The translations under genes were made by a program, and so were the position numbers. Shown one piece after another: positions 5,637 to 61,064 of a DNA stretch of 64,000 nucleotides. How positions within the stretch are numbered: the stretch's first letter is position 1; each line of letters opens with the position of its first letter. The notes beneath the pieces are model-generated. The model was given only the letters and a program-made list of their open reading frames with translations. It made no database searches and was not told the origin of the DNA. The DNA comes from an uncultured Flavobacteriaceae bacterium (lineage in GTDB: Bacteria; Bacteroidota; Bacteroidia; Flavobacteriales; Flavobacteriaceae), in the NCBI GenBank assembly GCA_937959395.1, contig CALGLR010000001.1, positions 1 to 64,000 of the forward strand, given 5' to 3'.

Positions 5637-5731
5637 AAAAGGACTAAGCGAAAAAAGGAATATGATTTTTCGTAGCCTTAAGGGTAAACCGAAAACCTTA
5701 TAATAGAGTAGGTGCTATATAATTTATAATT

Positions 5732-17274: not shown

Positions 17275-17309
17275 TTTGATTATGTAGGTAAATTCAAATT
17301 AAATGTTTG
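17275..17309 (+). promoter_or_regulatory. Candidate promoter of the ilv leader transcript
   Basis: TTTG at 17275-17278 and AATGTTTG at 17302-17309 (one mismatch to TAnnTTTG), with a 23 nt spacer that is slightly long. It lies 66 nt before the first leader peptide. From here back to 17016 I see only AT-rich sequence. Confidence 0.35.
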
Positions 17310-17374
17310 TAAATCAATTTTTTAAATAAAAAATCATCTAATTATTATAAAAAAATTATATATTAGTCATCTAA

Positions 17375-17437
17375 ATGAAAAAACAAATTTTAAATATTAT
17401 TTCAATTATTGTCATTGTGATTATTTCACAAGGATGA
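17375..17437 (+). CDS. ilv leader peptide 1
   Basis: 20-codon ORF MKKQILNIISIIVIVIISQG: eight Ile, two Val and one Leu, so more than half are branched-chain residues. It is followed 26 nt later by an intrinsic terminator and lies upstream of ilvD. This is the layout of a ribosome-mediated attenuator, in which slow translation of Ile/Val codons would prevent terminator formation. The peptide itself probably has no function. Confidence 0.7.
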   Translation: MKKQILNIISIIVIVIISQG

Positions 17438-17463
17438 AGGAATGTTATATATTAAAAATATTT

Positions 17464-17494
17464 AAAAGCCTTCTCTAAAAAGAAGGCTTTTTTT
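17464..17494 (+). terminator. Attenuator terminator 1 of the ilv operon
   Basis: Perfect 11 bp stem AAAAGCCTTCT / AGAAGGCTTTT with a 6 nt loop and a T run. GAAGG at 17436-17440, overlapping the leader 1 stop codon, can pair with CCTTC at 17469-17473 as a competing antiterminator. Confidence 0.75.
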
Positions 17495-17508
17495 ATGCAT
17501 TATTGATT

Positions 17509-17562
17509 ATGAAATTAAGAAACTTAACAATTATTATTTGTGTCATTATTAACTCTGTTTAG
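17509..17562 (+). CDS. ilv leader peptide 2
   Basis: 17-codon ORF MKLRNLTIIICVIINSV: five Ile, two Val, two Leu. It starts 15 nt after the first terminator, so it is translated only if RNA polymerase passes attenuator 1. It has its own downstream terminator. A second, independent Ile/Val/Leu sensor in series is the simplest reading. Confidence 0.7.
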   Translation: MKLRNLTIIICVIINSV

Positions 17563-17591
17563 AGTTGATACAGATATTAGTATATAATATT

Positions 17592-17623
17592 AAGCCTGTA
17601 TCATTTAGATACAGGCTTTTTTT
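17592..17623 (+). terminator. Attenuator terminator 2 of the ilv operon
   Basis: Perfect 11 bp stem AAGCCTGTATC / GATACAGGCTT with loop ATTTA and a T run. A copy of the 3' arm start, GATACAG, lies at 17567-17573 right after the leader 2 stop codon and can pair with CTGTATC at 17596-17602. A ribosome finishing the leader would cover that copy and allow termination; a stalled ribosome would leave it free to form the antiterminator. Confidence 0.8.
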
Positions 17624-17788
17624 ATATAAAAAAAAGATGTTGAATACACCAGTAAATTAGATATAAGATGCTTAAAATCAATTAATTAAATAATTATTTT
17701 TTGTTTTGGACTTAATAGGTCTAACTAAAAAATAAACTAAACACTTTTAGAAACTTTTAAATTCGAACTATAAAGATTAAACGTCGTA

Positions 17789-19465
17789 ATGAAATTAAAT
17801 AAATATAGTAAAACAGTTACTCAAGATCCAACGCAACCAGCTGCTCAGGCTATGTTACATGCTATTGGTTTAACTAAGGAAGATTTTTATAAACCTATCA
17901 TTGGTATTGCAAGTACGGGGTATGAAGGTAATCCATGTAATATGCATCTAAATGATCTCGCAAAATTAACAAAAGAAGGGACTAAGAAGGAAGATGTTAT
18001 TGGGCTTATATTTAATACAATAGGAGTTAGTGATGGTATTTCTATGGGGACTCCAGGAATGCGTTATTCATTGCCTTCTAGAGATATTATAGCAGACTCT
18101 ATGGAAACTGTAGTGCAGGCTATGAGCTATGATGGGCTAATAACAGTAGTGGGTTGTGATAAAAACATGCCAGGTGCTTTAATAGCAATGATTCGTTTAG
18201 ACCGTCCTAGTATATTGGTATATGGAGGAACAATAGATTCTGGCTGTCATGAAGGGAAAAAATTAGATGTCGTTTCTGCTTTTGAAGCATGGGGTAGTAA
18301 GGTAAGTGGTACGATGACTGAAACCGAATATCAAAGTATTGTTCAAAAGGCATGTCCAGGAGCTGGAGCTTGCGGAGGAATGTACACTGCAAATACAATG
18401 GCTTCAGCAATTGAAGCTTTAGGAATGACATTACCTTTTAATTCTTCTAACCCTGCACTAAGCAATGCAAAAAAAGAAGAAGCAGTAAAAGCTGGTGAAG
18501 CGATTAAATTATTGCTAGAAAGAGATATAAAACCTTCAGATATTATTACACGTAAATCTTTAGAAAATGCAATTCGATTAGTTACTATTTTAGGAGGTTC
18601 TACTAACGCAGTATTACACTTTCTAGCCATAGCAAGAGCATCAGATATAGATTTTACGCTTCAAGATTTTCAGAAAATTAGTGATACAACTCCTTTTTTA
18701 GCCGATTTAAAACCTAGCGGAAAATACCTTATGGAAGACATTCATGAAATAGGAGGTATTCCAGCGGTTTTAAAATATTTATTAAGAAAAGGTTTGATTC
18801 ATGGTGATTGTTTGACGGTAACAGGTAAAACGATAGCAGAAAATTTATTGGATGTAGAAGATTTAAAAGCTGGACAAGAAGTTATTAAGTCAATAGAAAA
18901 TCCAATTAAAGTTTCTGGGCATTTAAGAATGCTTTACGGGAATCTAGCAGAAGAAGGTAGCGTTGCAAAAATCACAGGAAAAGAAGGCTTAAGTTTTAGA
19001 GGTAAAGCAAAAGTGTTTAATGGTGAATATGAAGCGAATGCTGGAATTCAAAATGGCAAAGTTAAGAAAGGAGATGTGGTAGTTATTCGTTATGAAGGGC
19101 CTAAAGGAGGACCAGGAATGCCAGAAATGCTAAAACCAACTGCAGCAATAATGGGAGCAGGTTTAGGTAAAGAAGTGGCTTTAATAACAGATGGGCGATT
19201 CTCTGGAGGAACTCATGGCTTTGTTGTAGGTCATATAACACCAGAAGCTCAAGAGGGAGGAACATTAGCATTAGTTAAAAATGGAGACATTATTACTATT
19301 GATGCAGAAACAAACAGTATTGAGTTAGAAGTCGCTTATGAAGTTTTACAACAAAGAAGAAGGTTTTGGGAAGCTCCAGAATTGAAATTTAAAAAAGGAG
19401 TTTTATATAAATACGCTAAAACCGTATCTCCAGCGTCTAAAGGTTGTGTTACCGATGAGTTTTAA
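17789..19465 (+). CDS. ilvD: Dihydroxy-acid dehydratase
   Basis: 558 aa, usual length. Third step of valine/isoleucine synthesis, using an iron-sulfur cluster. Cluster cysteines are in [15 protein letters not shown] and [16 protein letters not shown]. The C-terminal half keeps [12 protein letters not shown] and [12 protein letters not shown]. First structural gene after the tandem attenuators, with about 165 nt of AT-rich leader between terminator 2 and its ATG. Confidence 0.97.
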
Positions 19466-19501
19466 TAAAAAAAGTTTTCAAAATCATAAATAAATCAAAT
19501 T

Positions 19502-21235
19502 ATGAACACAGAAACACTAAAAAGAACAGAAAAAAAAATAGATTCTAAAATGCGCATCACAGGAAGTGAAGCAATAGTCCGTTGTTTAATTGCAGAAGGT
19601 GTAAATACGCTTTATGGTTATCCTGGCGGGGCAATTATGCCGGTTTATGATGAGTTATATAAATTTCAAGATAAAATAAATCATGTCTTAACGCGTCATG
19701 AACAAGGAGCAACACACGCAGCTCAAGGTTATGCGAGAATATCTGGTAAAGTTGGAGTTGCAATAGCAACATCTGGCCCTGGTGCAACAAATTTAATTAC
19801 AGGAATAGCAGATGCTCAAATAGATTCTACACCTATGGTTTGTATTACTGGACAAGTGGGTTCACATTTATTGGGAACAGATGCATTTCAAGAAACAGAT
19901 ATTATTGGAATTTCTACTCCAGTTACTAAATGGAATCATCAAATTACAAAAGCATCGCAAATACCTGAGGTCTTGGCAAAGGCATTTTACATAGCAAGAA
20001 CAGGAAGACCTGGTCCTGTACTTATAGATATTACTAAAGATGCACAGTTTGAAGCATTCGATTTTTTATATGAAAAATGTGATGGGATTCGTAGTTATGT
20101 TCCCGTTCCAAATACAGATCCTGAGACCTTAAAAAATGCAGCTCAATTAATTAATTCAGCTAAAAAGCCATTGATAATTTGGGGACAAGGTGTTATTCTA
20201 AGTGAAGCGGAAAATATATTAAGAGCAGTTATCGAAAAAGCAGGAATTCCTTCGGCTTGGACCATTATGGGAGCTTCAGCTATTCCTACTAGCCATCCTT
20301 TAAATATAGGCATGGTAGGCATGCATGGTAATTATGCGCCAAATGTATTAACTAATGAGTGTGATGTCTTAATTGCCATTGGTATGCGTTTCGATGATAG
20401 AGTTACGGGGAATTTAGAAACCTATGCGAAGCAAGCAAAAGTTATTCATTTTGAAATAGATCCAGCTGAGGTTGATAAAAATGTAAAAACAGAAGTCGCC
20501 GTTTTAGGAGATGCAAAAAAAACATTACAAGCTCTATTGCCTTTGTTGAATAAAAAAGTACATGTTAATTGGCTTCAAAAATTTAAAGACCTATATAAAG
20601 TTGAATATGAAAAAGTAATTAATGATGATTTATATCCTGTAAAAGAAGGCATAACTATGGCAGAGGTTATAAAGGAAATAAATAAACAGAGTAGAGGGCA
20701 AGCAGCTATTGTTAGTGATGTAGGCCAACATCAAATGATTGCTTGTCGTTATGCCGAATTTAATGTCACTAAAAGTAATATTACTTCTGGAGGCTTAGGA
20801 ACTATGGGTTTTGCTTTGCCGGCAGCTATTGGTGCTAAAATGGCAGCGCCAGAAAGAGACGTAGTAGCAATTATTGGAGATGGAGGTTATCAAATGACGA
20901 TTCAAGAATTAGGAACGATTTTTCAAACAAAAGTACCAGTAAAAATAGTGGTTTTGAATAATGATTTTTTAGGAATGGTTCGACAATGGCAACAGTTGTT
21001 TTTTGATAAGCGTTATGCGTCTACCGAAATTCAAAATCCAGATTTCGTAGCCATAGCAAAAGGGTATTCAATTAATGCTAAAAAAGTAACAAAAAGAGAA
21101 GAAATCGCTTCCGCAGTAAAAGAGATGATGGCCTCTAAAGCCGCTTACTTTTTAGAAGTTTCTGTAGAGAAAGAAGCGAATGTTTTTCCTATGATACCCA
21201 CGGGGGCAAGTGTTTCAGATATAAGATTAAGTTAA
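19502..21235 (+). CDS. ilvB: Acetolactate synthase large subunit
   Basis: 577 aa. Condenses pyruvate with pyruvate or 2-oxobutyrate, using thiamine diphosphate. The ThDP-activating Glu is E67 in TRHEQGATHAAQGYARISG; the cofactor-metal motif GDGGYQMTIQELGT is in the C-terminal domain, followed by LNNDFLGMVRQWQ. Lies 36 nt after ilvD. Its regulatory subunit is encoded next. Confidence 0.97.
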   Translation: MNTETLKRTEKKIDSKMRITGSEAIVRCLIAEGVNTLYGYPGGAIMPVYDELYKFQDKINHVLTRHEQGATHAAQGYARISGKVGVAIATSGPGATNLITGIADAQIDSTPMVCITGQVGSHLLGTDAFQETDIIGISTPVTKWNHQITKASQIPEVLAKAFYIARTGRPGPVLIDITKDAQFEAFDFLYEKCDGIRSYVPVPNTDPETLKNAAQLINSAKKPLIIWGQGVILSEAENILRAVIEKAGIPSAWTIMGASAIPTSHPLNIGMVGMHGNYAPNVLTNECDVLIAIGMRFDDRVTGNLETYAKQAKVIHFEIDPAEVDKNVKTEVAVLGDAKKTLQALLPLLNKKVHVNWLQKFKDLYKVEYEKVINDDLYPVKEGITMAEVIKEINKQSRGQAAIVSDVGQHQMIACRYAEFNVTKSNITSGGLGTMGFALPAAIGAKMAAPERDVVAIIGDGGYQMTIQELGTIFQTKVPVKIVVLNNDFLGMVRQWQQLFFDKRYASTEIQNPDFVAIAKGYSINAKKVTKREEIASAVKEMMASKAAYFLEVSVEKEANVFPMIPTGASVSDIRLS

Positions 21236-21341
21236 AGTATGTAAAAGAAGTGTCACCGAGGCAGTCGAGAGGTTTTTAAAGGTCTCGACTTTGGCCTGTC
21301 TTGAGCGACAGACCAAAGGCTCGACCAGACAGAATTAAGGA
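21236..21341 (+). repeat. ilvB-ilvN spacer with two hairpins
   Basis: GTCGAGAGG / GGTCTCGAC-type arms at 21264-21289 and CTGTC / GACAG within TTTGG...CCAAA at about 21290-21317. These look like dispersed flavobacterial intergenic palindromes rather than a terminator, because no T run follows. Confidence 0.5.
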
Positions 21342-21887
21342 ATGATAGATATGGAAGAAAAACAATTATACACAGTATCAATATATACAGAGAATAATAT
21401 AGGGTTGTTAAATCGTATTTCTGCAATTTTTCAGAGGCGACATATTAACATAGAAAGCATAAACACATCGGTTTCAGAAATCGATGGCGTTTCTCGATTT
21501 ACTATAGTTATTTCGGTAGGTAAAGAACAAATAAAAAAAATAATAGGACAAATAGAAAAACAGGTTGAGGTTATTAGAGCTTATTACCATACTGATGAAG
21601 AAACAATTTATCAAGAATCATGTCTCTTTAAAGTCAAATCTGATTTATTATTTGAAGATGGGCATATTCAAAGTATAATTAAAGAAAGTAATGCGCGAAT
21701 TATAACAGTAAATAAAGAATTTTTTGTGCTTGAAAAATCAGGAGTAAGAAACGAGATAGAATTATTATATAAAGAATTAAGCGCTTTTGAAATTTTGCAG
21801 TTTACACGTTCAGGTAGAATTGCAGTAACAAAAGAGCGTATGGAAATATCTAAAATGCTTGAGGCATTTAACACCAATTATGTATAA
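21342..21887 (+). CDS. ilvN: Acetolactate synthase small (regulatory) subunit
   Basis: 181 aa with an N-terminal ACT domain (YTVSIYTENNIGLLNRISAI, then FQRRHINIES) that would bind valine. The C-terminal domain is the usual second half. An ATG at 21351 (MEEKQLY) is an equally good start. The last codons and the stop lie inside repeat copy C, so the element forms the end of this gene. Confidence 0.93.
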   Translation: MIDMEEKQLYTVSIYTENNIGLLNRISAIFQRRHINIESINTSVSEIDGVSRFTIVISVGKEQIKKIIGQIEKQVEVIRAYYHTDEETIYQESCLFKVKSDLLFEDGHIQSIIKESNARIITVNKEFFVLEKSGVRNEIELLYKELSAFEILQFTRSGRIAVTKERMEISKMLEAFNTNYV

Positions 21888-22032
21888 AATTTACTGTAAA
21901 AGAAATTGATTATTTTTTTCTTTAAATGAAATATAAAAATAAAGCATAGCCTAAGTTACGGTTTCTTTTTCTATTGAAATAGAAAGGAAAAAAGAACGAT
22001 TTATTGCAGGAAATCCTATGTATAAATGGTGT
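21871..22032 (+). repeat. Terminal-inverted-repeat element, copy C
   Basis: 162 bp between ACACC and GGTGT. The outer arms differ from copies A and B at both ends (ACACC/GGTGT in place of ATACC/GGTAT) yet remain complementary, so the stem appears maintained. It starts inside ilvN and ends 21 nt before ilvC, and is therefore transcribed within the operon. Confidence 0.75.
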
Positions 22033-22053
22033 AAATATTAAAAAAAAAAGAAA

Positions 22054-23556
22054 ATGGCAAATTATTTTAACACGTTATCATTACGTGATCAATTAGATCA
22101 ATTAGGAAAGTGTCGCTTCATGGATTCATTAGAGTTTAAAGACGGAGTGACTGTTTTAAAAGGTAAAAAAATAGTAATAATAGGTTGTGGTGCGCAAGGT
22201 TTAAACCAAGGTCTGAATATGAGAGATTCTGGATTAGATATTTCATATGCATTACGACAAAAAGCTATTGATGAGAATCGTAATTCTTATAAAAATGCAA
22301 CGAATAATGGGTTTAAAGTGGGGACTTATCAAACGCTTATTCCTACTGCAGATTTGGTGTTAAATTTAACGCCAGATAAACAGCATTCTAATGTTGTTGA
22401 GACGGTGATGCCATTAATGAAGAAAGGGTCAACGTTAAGTTATTCTCATGGATTTAATATTGTTGAGGAAGGTGTTCAAATTCGAAAAGACATTACCGTA
22501 ATAATGGTCGCTCCTAAATGTCCTGGAACAGAAGTAAGGGAAGAATATAAACGCGGTTTTGGAGTGCCAACGCTTATTGCTGTTCATCCAGAAAATGATC
22601 CAGAAAATAAAGGCTGGGGCCAAGCTAAAGCATATGCTGTAGCTACAGGAGGTCATAAAGCCGGAGTTTTAGAATCTTCTTTCGTAGCTGAAGTGAAAAG
22701 TGATTTAATGGGAGAACAAACTATTTTATGTGGTGTTTTACAAACGGGATCAATTTTATGTTTTGATAAAATGGTAGCTAGCGGAATAGAAGCCAGTTAC
22801 GCAGCAAAACTAATACAGTTAGGTTGGGAAACGATAACCGAAGCACTAAAGCATGGAGGCATCACTAATATGATGGACAGATTATCTAATCCTGCAAAGA
22901 TTAAGGCTTTTAAACTAGCCGAAGAGTTAAAAACGATTATGAAACCATTGTTTGAAAAACATATGGATGATATTATTTCTGGGCACTTCTCAAAAACAAT
23001 GATGACCGATTGGGCTAATGATGATAAAGACCTTTTAAATTGGAGAGCAGCAACAGAAAATACTGCTTTTGAGAAAACGACATTAACTACAGAGCATATT
23101 TCTGAACAAGATTATTTTGATCATGGTGTTTTATTAGTTGCTTTTGTTAAGTCTGGTGTTGAATTAGCTTTTGAAACTATGGTAAGCGCAGGAATCATTG
23201 AAGCATCTGCGTATTACGAGTCCTTACATGAATTACCATTAATAGCGAATACAATTGCGAGAAAGAAATTATTTGAAATGAATAATGTCATATCTGATAC
23301 TGCAGAGTATGGATGTTATTTATTTGATCATGCTTGTAAACCACTACTTGTAGACTTTATGGAAACTATTAATACGGATGTTATTGGGAAACGCTTTTCT
23401 TCAACAAATGCGGTAGATAATATAGAATTAATAGCAATAAATGAAGCGATAAGAAATCATCCTATTGAATCAATAGGTAAAGAATTAAGAACAGCAATGA
23501 CCGCAATGAAAATAGTGAAAACTGATGTTAGGACTAAGGATTCAGTATTAGCTTAA
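22054..23556 (+). CDS. ilvC: Ketol-acid reductoisomerase, class II
   Basis: 500 aa, the long form with a duplicated C-terminal knotted domain. Converts acetolactate or acetohydroxybutyrate to the dihydroxy acid with NADPH. The dinucleotide-binding loop is [40 protein letters not shown] follows. Metal-ligand acidic segments such as [15 protein letters not shown] are intact. Lies directly after repeat copy C. Confidence 0.96.
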
Positions 23557-23662
23557 AACGGTATGTTGCACTGAGCGGAGTCGAAGTGCTAATAAAATAA
23601 TAATAATAATAAAACTGGATGGGTGATTCCGATAGCTATCGGGACTGCCTCCACAGAAATGG
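23557..23662 (+). repeat. ilvC-ilvA spacer with dispersed palindromes
   Basis: Contains GCACTGAGCGGAGTCGAAGTGC-type sequence at about 23569-23591, a short TAA triplet run, and TCCGATAGCTATCGGGA at about 23626-23642. Both palindromes resemble dispersed repeats of flavobacterial genomes. No terminator T run. Confidence 0.55.
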
Positions 23663-24925
23663 ATGAAAGTTAAAACAACCTATTTCCCAACACTAGAAGC
23701 TGTTGAATTGGCTGCAAAACGATTAGACGGTATTGCGTTAGTAACACCATTAACAACTAATTTGCAGTACTCCAAACAGTATGATAGTAACATTTTGTTT
23801 AAACGAGAAGATTTGCAAGTCGTTCGTTCTTATAAAATAAGAGGGGCTTATAATAAAATGGCAGCACTTACTACCTCAGAAGTGATGAATGGTATTGTAT
23901 GTGCAAGTGCTGGAAATCATGCGCAAGGTGTAGCGTTATCCTGTAAATTGTTAAAAATGAAGGGGACTATCTATATGCCAGTGCCTACTCCTAAGCAAAA
24001 ATTAGATCAAGTTAAAATGTTTGGAGAAGCGTACATTAATATTGTTTTAGAAGGAGATACTTTCGATGATTCTTATCACGCAGCAAAATTTGAAAGCGAA
24101 CGTTTAAATAAAACATTTATTCACCCTTTTAATGACGAAAAAGTAATTGAAGGCCAAGCGACTGTAGGTTTAGAAATCTTAAAACAAGCAAAACAACCTA
24201 TAGATTATGTTTTTGTTCCTGTTGGAGGTGGTGGTTTATCTTCCGGATTGTCTTCAGTATTTAAATTATTATCTCCTAATACAAAGATAATTGGTGTCGA
24301 ACCAGAAGGAGCGCCTTCAATGTCTAATTCTATAAAACATAATAAAAATATAGAATTAAAGTATATAGAAAAATTTGTAGACGGTGCCGCTGTAAAACGA
24401 GTCGGGGACTTGAACTTTGAAATATGCAAATCGAATTTAGATGCTATGATTACCGTTTCAGAAGGAAAAATATGTCAAACTATTTTAGAACTATATAATA
24501 AAGATGCTATTGTAGTGGAACCTGCAGGTGCTTTAAGTATAGCCGCTTTAGAATGTTATGCTAATGAAATAAAAGGGAAAAATATAGTTTGCGTGGTTAG
24601 TGGAAGTAATAATGATATTACACGAACTGCCGAAATAAAAGAACGTGCTCTATTACATGCTAATTTAAAACATTATTTTATTATAAAATTTCCACAACGC
24701 GCAGGTGCATTAAGAGAGTTTTTAGCAGATATTTTGGGGCCTACCGATGATATTACGCATTTTGAATATACAAAGAAAACAAATCGCGAAAATGGGGCAG
24801 CTGTTGTAGGGTTAGAATTAAAATCTTCAGCAGATTTAGAACCATTAATTACTAAAATGAAGCTTCATAACTTTTATGGGGATTACCTAAATGATAAACC
24901 AGATTTATTTCAATTTTTGGTATGA
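23663..24925 (+). CDS. ilvA: Threonine dehydratase (biosynthetic)
   Basis: 420 aa, PLP enzyme making 2-oxobutyrate for isoleucine. The PLP lysine is in VVRSYKIRGAYNKM; the phosphate-binding loop is VPVGGGGLSSGLSS. A short C-terminal ACT-like segment begins near HYFIIKFPQRAGALREFL, shorter than the two-domain E. coli enzyme. It closes the ilv operon. Confidence 0.95.
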   Translation: MKVKTTYFPTLEAVELAAKRLDGIALVTPLTTNLQYSKQYDSNILFKREDLQVVRSYKIRGAYNKMAALTTSEVMNGIVCASAGNHAQGVALSCKLLKMKGTIYMPVPTPKQKLDQVKMFGEAYINIVLEGDTFDDSYHAAKFESERLNKTFIHPFNDEKVIEGQATVGLEILKQAKQPIDYVFVPVGGGGLSSGLSSVFKLLSPNTKIIGVEPEGAPSMSNSIKHNKNIELKYIEKFVDGAAVKRVGDLNFEICKSNLDAMITVSEGKICQTILELYNKDAIVVEPAGALSIAALECYANEIKGKNIVCVVSGSNNDITRTAEIKERALLHANLKHYFIIKFPQRAGALREFLADILGPTDDITHFEYTKKTNRENGAAVVGLELKSSADLEPLITKMKLHNFYGDYLNDKPDLFQFLV

Positions 24926-41287: not shown

Positions 41288-41317
41288 CACTCACAAAGTT
41301 CAATAACTTATTGAGAT

Positions 41318-41437
41318 GTTATCAAGAAAGGTGGAGGGATTAGACCCGCTGAAGCCTTAGCAACCCTTTAGAAATAGAGAAGGTGCTAAATTCTACTTAA
41401 AAATTCGATTCATTTATCGAAGATTTGGATAGATAAC
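41318..41437 (+). ncRNA. SAM-I type riboswitch upstream of metY
   Basis: P1 arms GTTATC (41318-41323) and GATAAC (41432-41437). The conserved core reads AAAGGTGGAGGGATTAGACC, then GCTGAAGCCTTAGCAACC and AGGTGCTAAATTC, as in the S-box/SAM-I family. Between its end and metY (123 nt) is a weak stem GTTAT/ATAAC with a few T, so the output switch may be a weak terminator or translational. Confidence 0.9.
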
Positions 41438-41560
41438 TAACACAGAATTTACGACCTGTAACTTCTGTTATTTTCTTTATAACATTTTTCTATTAAGTCC
41501 GTCATTAAGTGGCGTATTTGACTTTTGGTTTAATTTTTATTAATTCAAAAAACTAGAAAA

Positions 41561-56948: not shown

Positions 56949-57026
56949 AAGAAATAATTACCCTAAAATGAGGCAAATAAAAAAGTTTGCCTTAAGTTTA
57001 CAACTTAGTTCATAAATATATTAATT

Positions 57027-57162
57027 GTTATCACGAAAGGCAGAGGGATTAGACCCGTTGAAGCCTTAGCAACCCTCATGTTCCCGCGTAGGCGGGAATC
57101 TCAATAAATGAGAAGGTGCTACATTCTACTAGTTTTTAGTATTTAAATTCTAGACAGATAAC
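57027..57162 (+). ncRNA. SAM-I type riboswitch upstream of split metH, with a hairpin insert
   Basis: P1 arms GTTATC (57027-57032) and GATAAC (57157-57162); core AGAGGGATTAGACC, GTTGAAGCCTTAGCAACCC and AGGTGCTACATTC as in the metY riboswitch. Between GCAACC and AGGTGC an added palindrome TTCCCGCGTAGGCGGGAA (57081-57098) sits on an extended CTCAT/ATGAG stem. No clear terminator before the next ATG (52 nt). Confidence 0.88.
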
Positions 57163-57214
57163 CCGAGTAAATTTCTCTTACTTTCCTGATGACATACTGA
57201 TAAAATTATCAAAC

Positions 57215-60966: not shown

Positions 60967-60976
60967 TAAATGGTAT

Positions 60977-61064
60977 TGCGTTAGCGATAGAAACGGCATC
61001 CTTTTGTTTTTTAATACTATAAAAACAAAAGATATAGTGGATAGCGCGACCCTTGGGTAACGCA
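60977..61064 (+). ncRNA. Structured element after metH (candidate RNA)
   Basis: Outer 7 bp stem TGCGTTA / TAACGCA, an inner hairpin CTTTTGTTTTTT / AAAAACAAAAG, and sequence blocks GCGATAGAAACGGCATCC and GGATAGCGCGACCC between. I recall very similar blocks in many flavobacterial genomes, but I cannot name a family with certainty. Confidence 0.45.

Follow-up and report, generated by a model that had tools for sequence, protein, structure and literature searches.

The leader of the ilvDBNCA operon in an uncultured Flavobacteriaceae bacterium (GenBank assembly GCA_937959395.1, contig CALGLR010000001.1) carries two complete, predicted ribosome-mediated attenuators in series, an arrangement that had been proposed in an earlier, sequence-only reading and that was confirmed by sequence analysis. 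The window, that is, the whole stretch of DNA analyzed here, comprises the first 64,000 nucleotides of this contig. Behind the leader, the genes ilvD-ilvB-ilvN-ilvC-ilvA are encoded on the plus strand (17789..24925, with ilvD starting at 17789); ilvD, ilvB, ilvC, and ilvA score over the NCBIfam cut-off, and 21342-21887, which has no match at E 1e-30, is called ilvN from its place and sequence. It is very probable that the two units are classical ribosome-mediated attenuators acting successively on one transcript. The sequence elements, their conservation, their covariation, and the alternative pairings in silico are documented for these tandem attenuators, to which the proposed mechanism would add ribosome stalling, termination in the cell, independence of the units, and a serial response.

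In each unit, a short ORF rich in Ile and Val has a 1:2 hairpin at its end, a putative antiterminator arm lies at its stop codon, and a terminator of 11 bp with a T run follows; the two units are separated by a gap of 14 bases. In unit A, the predicted leader ORF at 17375..17437 on the plus strand encodes MKKQILNIISIIVIVIISQG, for which similar leaders are found in relatives. Its end forms the 1:2 hairpin (17412..17434, plus strand), in which 17412-17420 pairs with 17426-17434 according to RNAalifold and pair counts. The arm GAAGG (segment 2; 17436..17440, plus strand) overlaps the stop codon, and in a fold of segments 2 and 3 it pairs with CCTTC, as had been suggested. Subsequently, the intrinsic terminator A with segments 3 and 4 and the T run (17464..17494, plus strand) is formed by AAAAGCCTTCT-CTAAAA-AGAAGGCTTTT at 17464-17491 with the T run at 17488-17494. 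In unit B, the ORF at 17509..17562 on the plus strand encodes MKLRNLTIIICVIINSV, and the 1:2 hairpin (17547..17570, plus strand) is built from TATTAACTC (17547-17555) pairing with GAGTTGATA (17562-17570), again from RNAalifold and pair counts. The arm GATACAG right after the stop codon (segment 2; 17567..17573, plus strand) had been proposed as a pairing partner of the terminator 5' arm; this 2:3 pairing forms in silico, and the assignment is supported by pair counts with segment 3 and by a cross-family permutation test. The intrinsic terminator B (17592..17623, plus strand) has the sequence AAGCCTGTATC-ATTTA-GATACAGGCTT at 17592-17618, with the T run at 17617-17623. The ORF lengths of 20 and 17 codons and the branched-chain counts (I/L/V) of 11/20 and 9/17 proved to be correct, and both terminators have 11 perfect pairs as described. 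The two 1:2 hairpins and the -7 box discussed below (17359-17366) did not figure in the sequence-only reading.

When 17301-17640 was shuffled with dinucleotide composition retained, the unit detector found at least one unit in 24 of 3000 shuffles and two units in none. Together with the conservation in relatives, this supports the interpretation of the leader as attenuators. Covariance models recovered both units. Model R2 matched 17410-17491 (E 2.7e-9), covering terminator A, and model R1 matched 17547-17622 (E 8.5e-13), covering terminator B; in the own genome, each model has one strong match, and these are the units of the window. In Rfam, no family, T-box included, matched the leader at gathering score, and its best scores were rli42 (34.7/80 bits), Phe_leader (30.7/55 bits), and Thr_leader (28.1/55 bits), all below gathering. 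Elsewhere in the window, Rfam matches at gathering score are two SAM riboswitches, a Flavo-1 RNA, and a DUF805b RNA (41316-41439, 57025-57164, 60973-61055, 5679-5714).

The units belong to two families, which differ in their terminator stems: CCTTCC/GGAAGG in family A and CCTGTATC/GATACAGG in family B. With RNAalifold, the 1:2 hairpin at the ORF end was found beside the terminator in both families (15 B units; 10 A units). The presence of this hairpin in each unit makes the arrangement a predicted classical four-segment attenuator. In family B, segment 2 (GATACAG) can pair either with segment 1 or, as an antiterminator, with segment 3 (CTGTATC), which can instead pair with segment 4 to form the terminator. 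Across 57 distinct B units, 96.1% of the cells of the structure were paired and 13 of 20 pairs had double changes, a number reached by 0 of 500 shuffles; the 1:2 helix alone had double changes in six of nine pairs in the same 57 sequences. Covariation supports the predicted 1:2 hairpin and the predicted terminator of B. This count leans towards structure because the B rows were found by a model that holds the structure, although MAFFT aligned them without structure. The A6 alignment consisted of 58 R1 matches, without L171, L232, L040, L045, and the triple loci. For the 2:3 antiterminator of B, 97.7% of the cells were paired, double changes were not above shuffles (212/500), and nearly all changes led to G-U, so that what speaks for 2:3 within family B is simply that it has been kept.

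For the putative antiterminator, a comparison across families is a stronger test than that within B. In 44 units with different 5' arms, the stop region paired with its own segment 3 with a mean of -7.2 kcal/mol versus -4.9 kcal/mol with the segments 3 of others, and none of 20000 permutations reached this. The ORFs in this comparison had been picked without regard to segment 2, and some rows that are probably not real units (L053, L102, and the first L106) were retained. Evidence for the 1:2 helix of A is weaker than for that of B, with 82.2% of cells paired and double changes in three of nine pairs; for the whole A structure, the number of pairs with double changes was reached by 3 of 500 shuffles. 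The alignment for the A model contained 10 of 20 candidates: L006, L026, L027, L029, L070, and L099 were not put into A2, and L022, L030, L033, and L037 were left out because of a misaligned 5' arm.

Folding of the states predicted for unit B in silico gave a short 1:2 core beside 2:3 when segments 1-3 had been made (-14.4 kcal/mol), 2:3 when segment 1 was covered (-9.7 kcal/mol), and 3:4 with the ribosome at the stop codon or once segment 4 had been made (-16.9 and -19.7 kcal/mol, respectively). Unit A folded alike in these states, with -14.2, -6.1, -13.8, and -15.0 kcal/mol. In both units of the window, the antiterminator thus excludes the terminator in silico. As the terminator wins at equilibrium once segment 4 has been made, antitermination must be kinetic. 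Antitermination is kinetic in known attenuators as well.

Ahead of ORF A, a -7 box of the Bacteroidota sigma-A type, TATATTAG (17359..17366, plus strand), matches five of the six fixed letters of the consensus TAnnTTTG. The exact consensus is absent before A in most genomes with an A-B pair, and therefore one mismatch was allowed in box counts. Under this rule, 48 of 65 leaders that start with A have a box beginning 16-18 nt ahead of the first ATG (windows of equal width elsewhere: mean 4.8, at most 16), and 20 of 24 leaders that start with B have one beginning 12-13 nt ahead of it (windows elsewhere: mean 1.3, at most 5). In Flavobacterium psychrophilum, the box has been located at -12 to -5 from the transcription start (PMC9723704), which would put the predicted start some 4 nt upstream of ORF A (near 17371 in the window) and roughly on the ATG in B-first leaders; the same report gives only 5.5% leaderless mRNAs for that organism.

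An internal promoter sought as exact TAnnTTTG was found in none of the 27 gaps between serial A and B units. The exact motif occurs inside unit A in 2 of the 27 A-B genomes and downstream of unit B in 10, so that promoters bypassing a unit are possible there, as is a diverged promoter in the five A-B gaps with a length of 77-179 nt. In five genomes (among L141, L142, L160, L199, L243, and others), the exact motif lies 138-147 nt after the B terminator, either by chance or as a second promoter. The likeliest arrangement is the serial reading of both units from one start.

According to the proposed mechanism, the polymerase would start just ahead of ORF A. With plentiful Ile and Val, the translating ribosome would get to the stop codon and cover the arm, and the terminator would form. 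If charged tRNA-Ile or tRNA-Val ran short, the ribosome would stall a few codons before the stop codon and open the 1:2 hairpin, and the arm freed in this way would pair with the terminator's 5' arm, allowing the polymerase to read on to unit B, where the test would be repeated. For independent units, the read-through reaching ilvD would be the product of two probabilities, and as a consequence the leak would be squared and the relative sensitivity doubled. The steeper or AND-like response expected from the sequence-only reading is a reasonable inference.

To determine the spread of this arrangement, 397 sampled Flavobacteriaceae genomes were searched for IlvD at E 1e-180. IlvD was found in 311 of them, and 159 of these were examined, comprising 132 fetched from listed places, which are biased to high identity, and 27 of 30 earlier loci (without L009, L015, and L028). 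With the detector and the models, 28 genomes were assigned to AB, 2 to AA-like, 36 to A only, 26 to B only, and 3 to other, and no unit was recognized in 64, of which four have less than 1.4 kb of upstream DNA. One of the AB genomes (L232) has A and B about 730 nt apart and was left out of the serial count, which amounts to 27 AB pairs in 20 genus codes, typed from the result tables of the genomes, and the 2 AA-like pairs. A stands first in 27 of 27. The models matched both units in 27 of 27 serial pairs and all 26 B-only genomes, and 7 of the 36 A-only assignments rest on the detector alone. On its own, the detector gave 133 matches on the sense strand, spread over 97 of the 159 regions, and, as a control, 40 matches on the opposite strand, spread over 31 of the 159; many of the latter fall on the same hairpins. 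The A-B gap is 47 nt or less in 22 of the 27 serial pairs. In 12 of 28 AB genomes, the last unit lies more than 1 kb before ilvD, and where this was looked at, ilvE lies in between (G219, by sequence; G285, by NCBIfam). ORFs and stems are thus kept in the ilv leaders of many relatives, a check that the sequence-only reading had called for, and its view of a tandem pair as unusual for a flavobacterium needs correction, as the pair is not peculiar to this genome.

A count by eye over 80 named loci, which disregards matches distant from the operon or lacking a plausible leader, gave two units in nine of them: Gaetbulibacter S0825, Tenacibaculum caenipelagi, a Lutibacter, an Aquimarina, Chryseobacterium lathyri, Chryseobacterium MYb7, and three MAGs labelled Flavobacteriales, Cyclobacteriaceae, and Ignavibacteriae. 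The last six of these, Aquimarina among them, have stems unlike the standard A and B stems, for example ATCCCTTT with AAAGGGAT in an Aquimarina. In the loci L042, L204, and L249, pairs with non-standard stems have a stop-codon arm that is altered to match. Furthermore, three units in a row precede ilvE-ilvD in G118 (L273:1654-2045) and G285 (L274, minus strand), which represent two genera, were fetched for their double model matches, and stand outside the 159. In both triples, units two and three are near-copies, and the stop-codon arms match their own stems. At about 2452 of the G118 locus, an in-frame TGA interrupts ilvE, which may be a sequencing error or indicate a broken gene.

The distribution bears on the explanation that one unit regulates and the other is a relic or a back-up terminator. 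That A alone is found in 36 genomes and B alone in 26 indicates that one unit can suffice, and a sister of the window's genus (L002) has lost its B terminator: in the 458 nt before its ilvD, a gap of 41 columns between aligned flanks takes the place of the B terminator, and no A unit is recognizable in these 458 nt, which may reflect decay of an attenuator within one genus. Nevertheless, both units of the window keep the ORF, arm 2, and a perfect 11-bp terminator, serial pairs retain both units across their 20 genus codes, and triples occur in two genera, all of which makes a single working unit unlikely. In a tree of the 159 IlvD rows, in which 71 of 156 inner branches have a support under 80, AB, A, and B are scattered. 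AB requires 21 changes compared to a mean of 26.3 in shuffles, and 0 of 500 shuffles are as low, so that AB is more clustered than in shuffles. The tree reads equally well as gain or as loss; given the fixed order and the distinctness of families A and B, it is simplest to assume that an old A-B pair was lost repeatedly, and the pair is probably old in Flavobacteriaceae.

Regarding the signal, A leaders (n=67) contain 33.2% Ile, 12.3% Val, and 5.8% Leu, and B leaders (n=51) contain 30.8% Ile, 13.5% Val, and 6.3% Leu, compared to 8.3%, 6.2%, and 9.0%, respectively, in the long ORFs of the window. Thus, of the leaders proposed for Ile, Val, and Leu, the first two are borne out as favored residues, whereas Leu is scarcer in the leaders than in the window's proteins on average. 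Part of the enrichment follows from the choice of ORFs by their I/L/V content, but the Leu shortfall does not. The leuA-leuC-leuD-leuB operon of the window (39527-35086, minus strand) has no recognized leader attenuator, neither by the detector over the window nor by eye in its upstream stretch. The commonest distance of the last Ile/Val codon before the stop codon is three residues in A (32/67) and four in B (20/51). As a ribosome covers 12-15 nt from the P site (PMC3641672), a ribosome stalled at this codon would about free the stop-codon arm. Val codons in the leaders are mostly GTC and GTG, with GTC accounting for 57 of 157 Val codons in the A leaders and 72 of 115 in the B leaders, compared to 329 of 2895 in N-terminal IlvD codons. 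Among 32 tRNA matches in the own genome, the sole tRNA-Val has the anticodon TAC, and the list is incomplete, as no tRNA-Ile or tRNA-Ala was recovered.

If the two units sensed different signals, for example one Ile and the other Val, the leader would be a logic gate and not an amplifier. A and B are distinct families in a fixed order, and for Val they prefer different codons, A using GTC and GTG and B mostly GTC, as might be expected for such a gate. Their make-up is nearly the same, however (Ile 33/31%, Val 12/13.5%), and in most leaders of either family the last Ile/Leu/Val codon encodes Ile (45/67 in A, 32/51 in B); a different-signal pair is therefore not favored from the leader sequences and appears unlikely. 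An independent function of the small hydrophobic peptides, with the hairpins serving as plain terminators, is highly improbable: the A peptide resembles a short membrane helix and some other residues (S, N, Q) recur, but Leu is below average, unlike in a usual membrane helix, the stop-codon arm tracks the terminator stem, and the units precede ilv genes or ilvE-ilvD.

Successive attenuators that would respond to the same amino acids remain the preferred reading. One-, two-, and three-unit leaders exist in relatives, and same-signal serial attenuators would therefore be a natural experiment on leak and steepness, in which a second unit in series would square the leak. A broader proposal, on which the evidence is evenly poised, is that Bacteroidota set the gain of the Ile/Val response by the number (one, two, or three) of same-signal attenuators in series. 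This would be a multiplicative amplifier without a regulator protein, with leader RNAs starting no more than a few bases away from the first ORF.

Attenuation is a textbook mechanism. In classical attenuators such as those of trp and his in E. coli and of ilv leaders, a short ORF carries the control codons, the RNA can pair alternatively as 1:2, 2:3, or 3:4, and an intrinsic terminator is present. The window's units share the ORF with control codons, the alternative pairings, and the intrinsic terminator with the classical leader-peptide attenuator model (PMC1183508). Two ORF-controlled attenuators in one leader have been described for mgtCBR of Salmonella, which responds to ATP and proline and was termed 'a singular example' by the authors (PMC3641672). 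This leader resembles the one described here in its tandem of ORF-controlled attenuators; in contrast, its signals differ and its stems are unlike intrinsic terminators, whereas the ilv leader has the same codons in both units and intrinsic terminators. For a flavobacterium, leader-peptide attenuation has already been suggested in the literature: 'strong clues' for it upstream of amino-acid operons were reported for F. psychrophilum (PMC9723704), which belongs to the same family, and the section on attenuation mentions no tandem. The rimP leader of Gammaproteobacteria has two tandem terminators, the upstream one with an antiterminator, but unlike the window's units it does not precede an amino-acid operon, and no leader ORF is named in the passage on the tandem terminators (PMC2965389). 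In ermB, two leader peptides precede one gene (PMC8274638), as do two leader ORFs here, but attenuation is translational and induced by an antibiotic.

Among the papers listed in a literature search outside subscription journals and supplements, none on same-signal tandem or triple leader-peptide attenuators was found. A comparative survey of attenuators from 2004 may mention Bacteroidetes. For Bacteroidota, the finding would document leader-peptide attenuation in detail, in a case where the leader ORFs lie close to the 5' end of the transcript. Unlike classical attenuators, these leaders contain two or three complete units per operon, and their predicted start lies a few bases before the first ORF.
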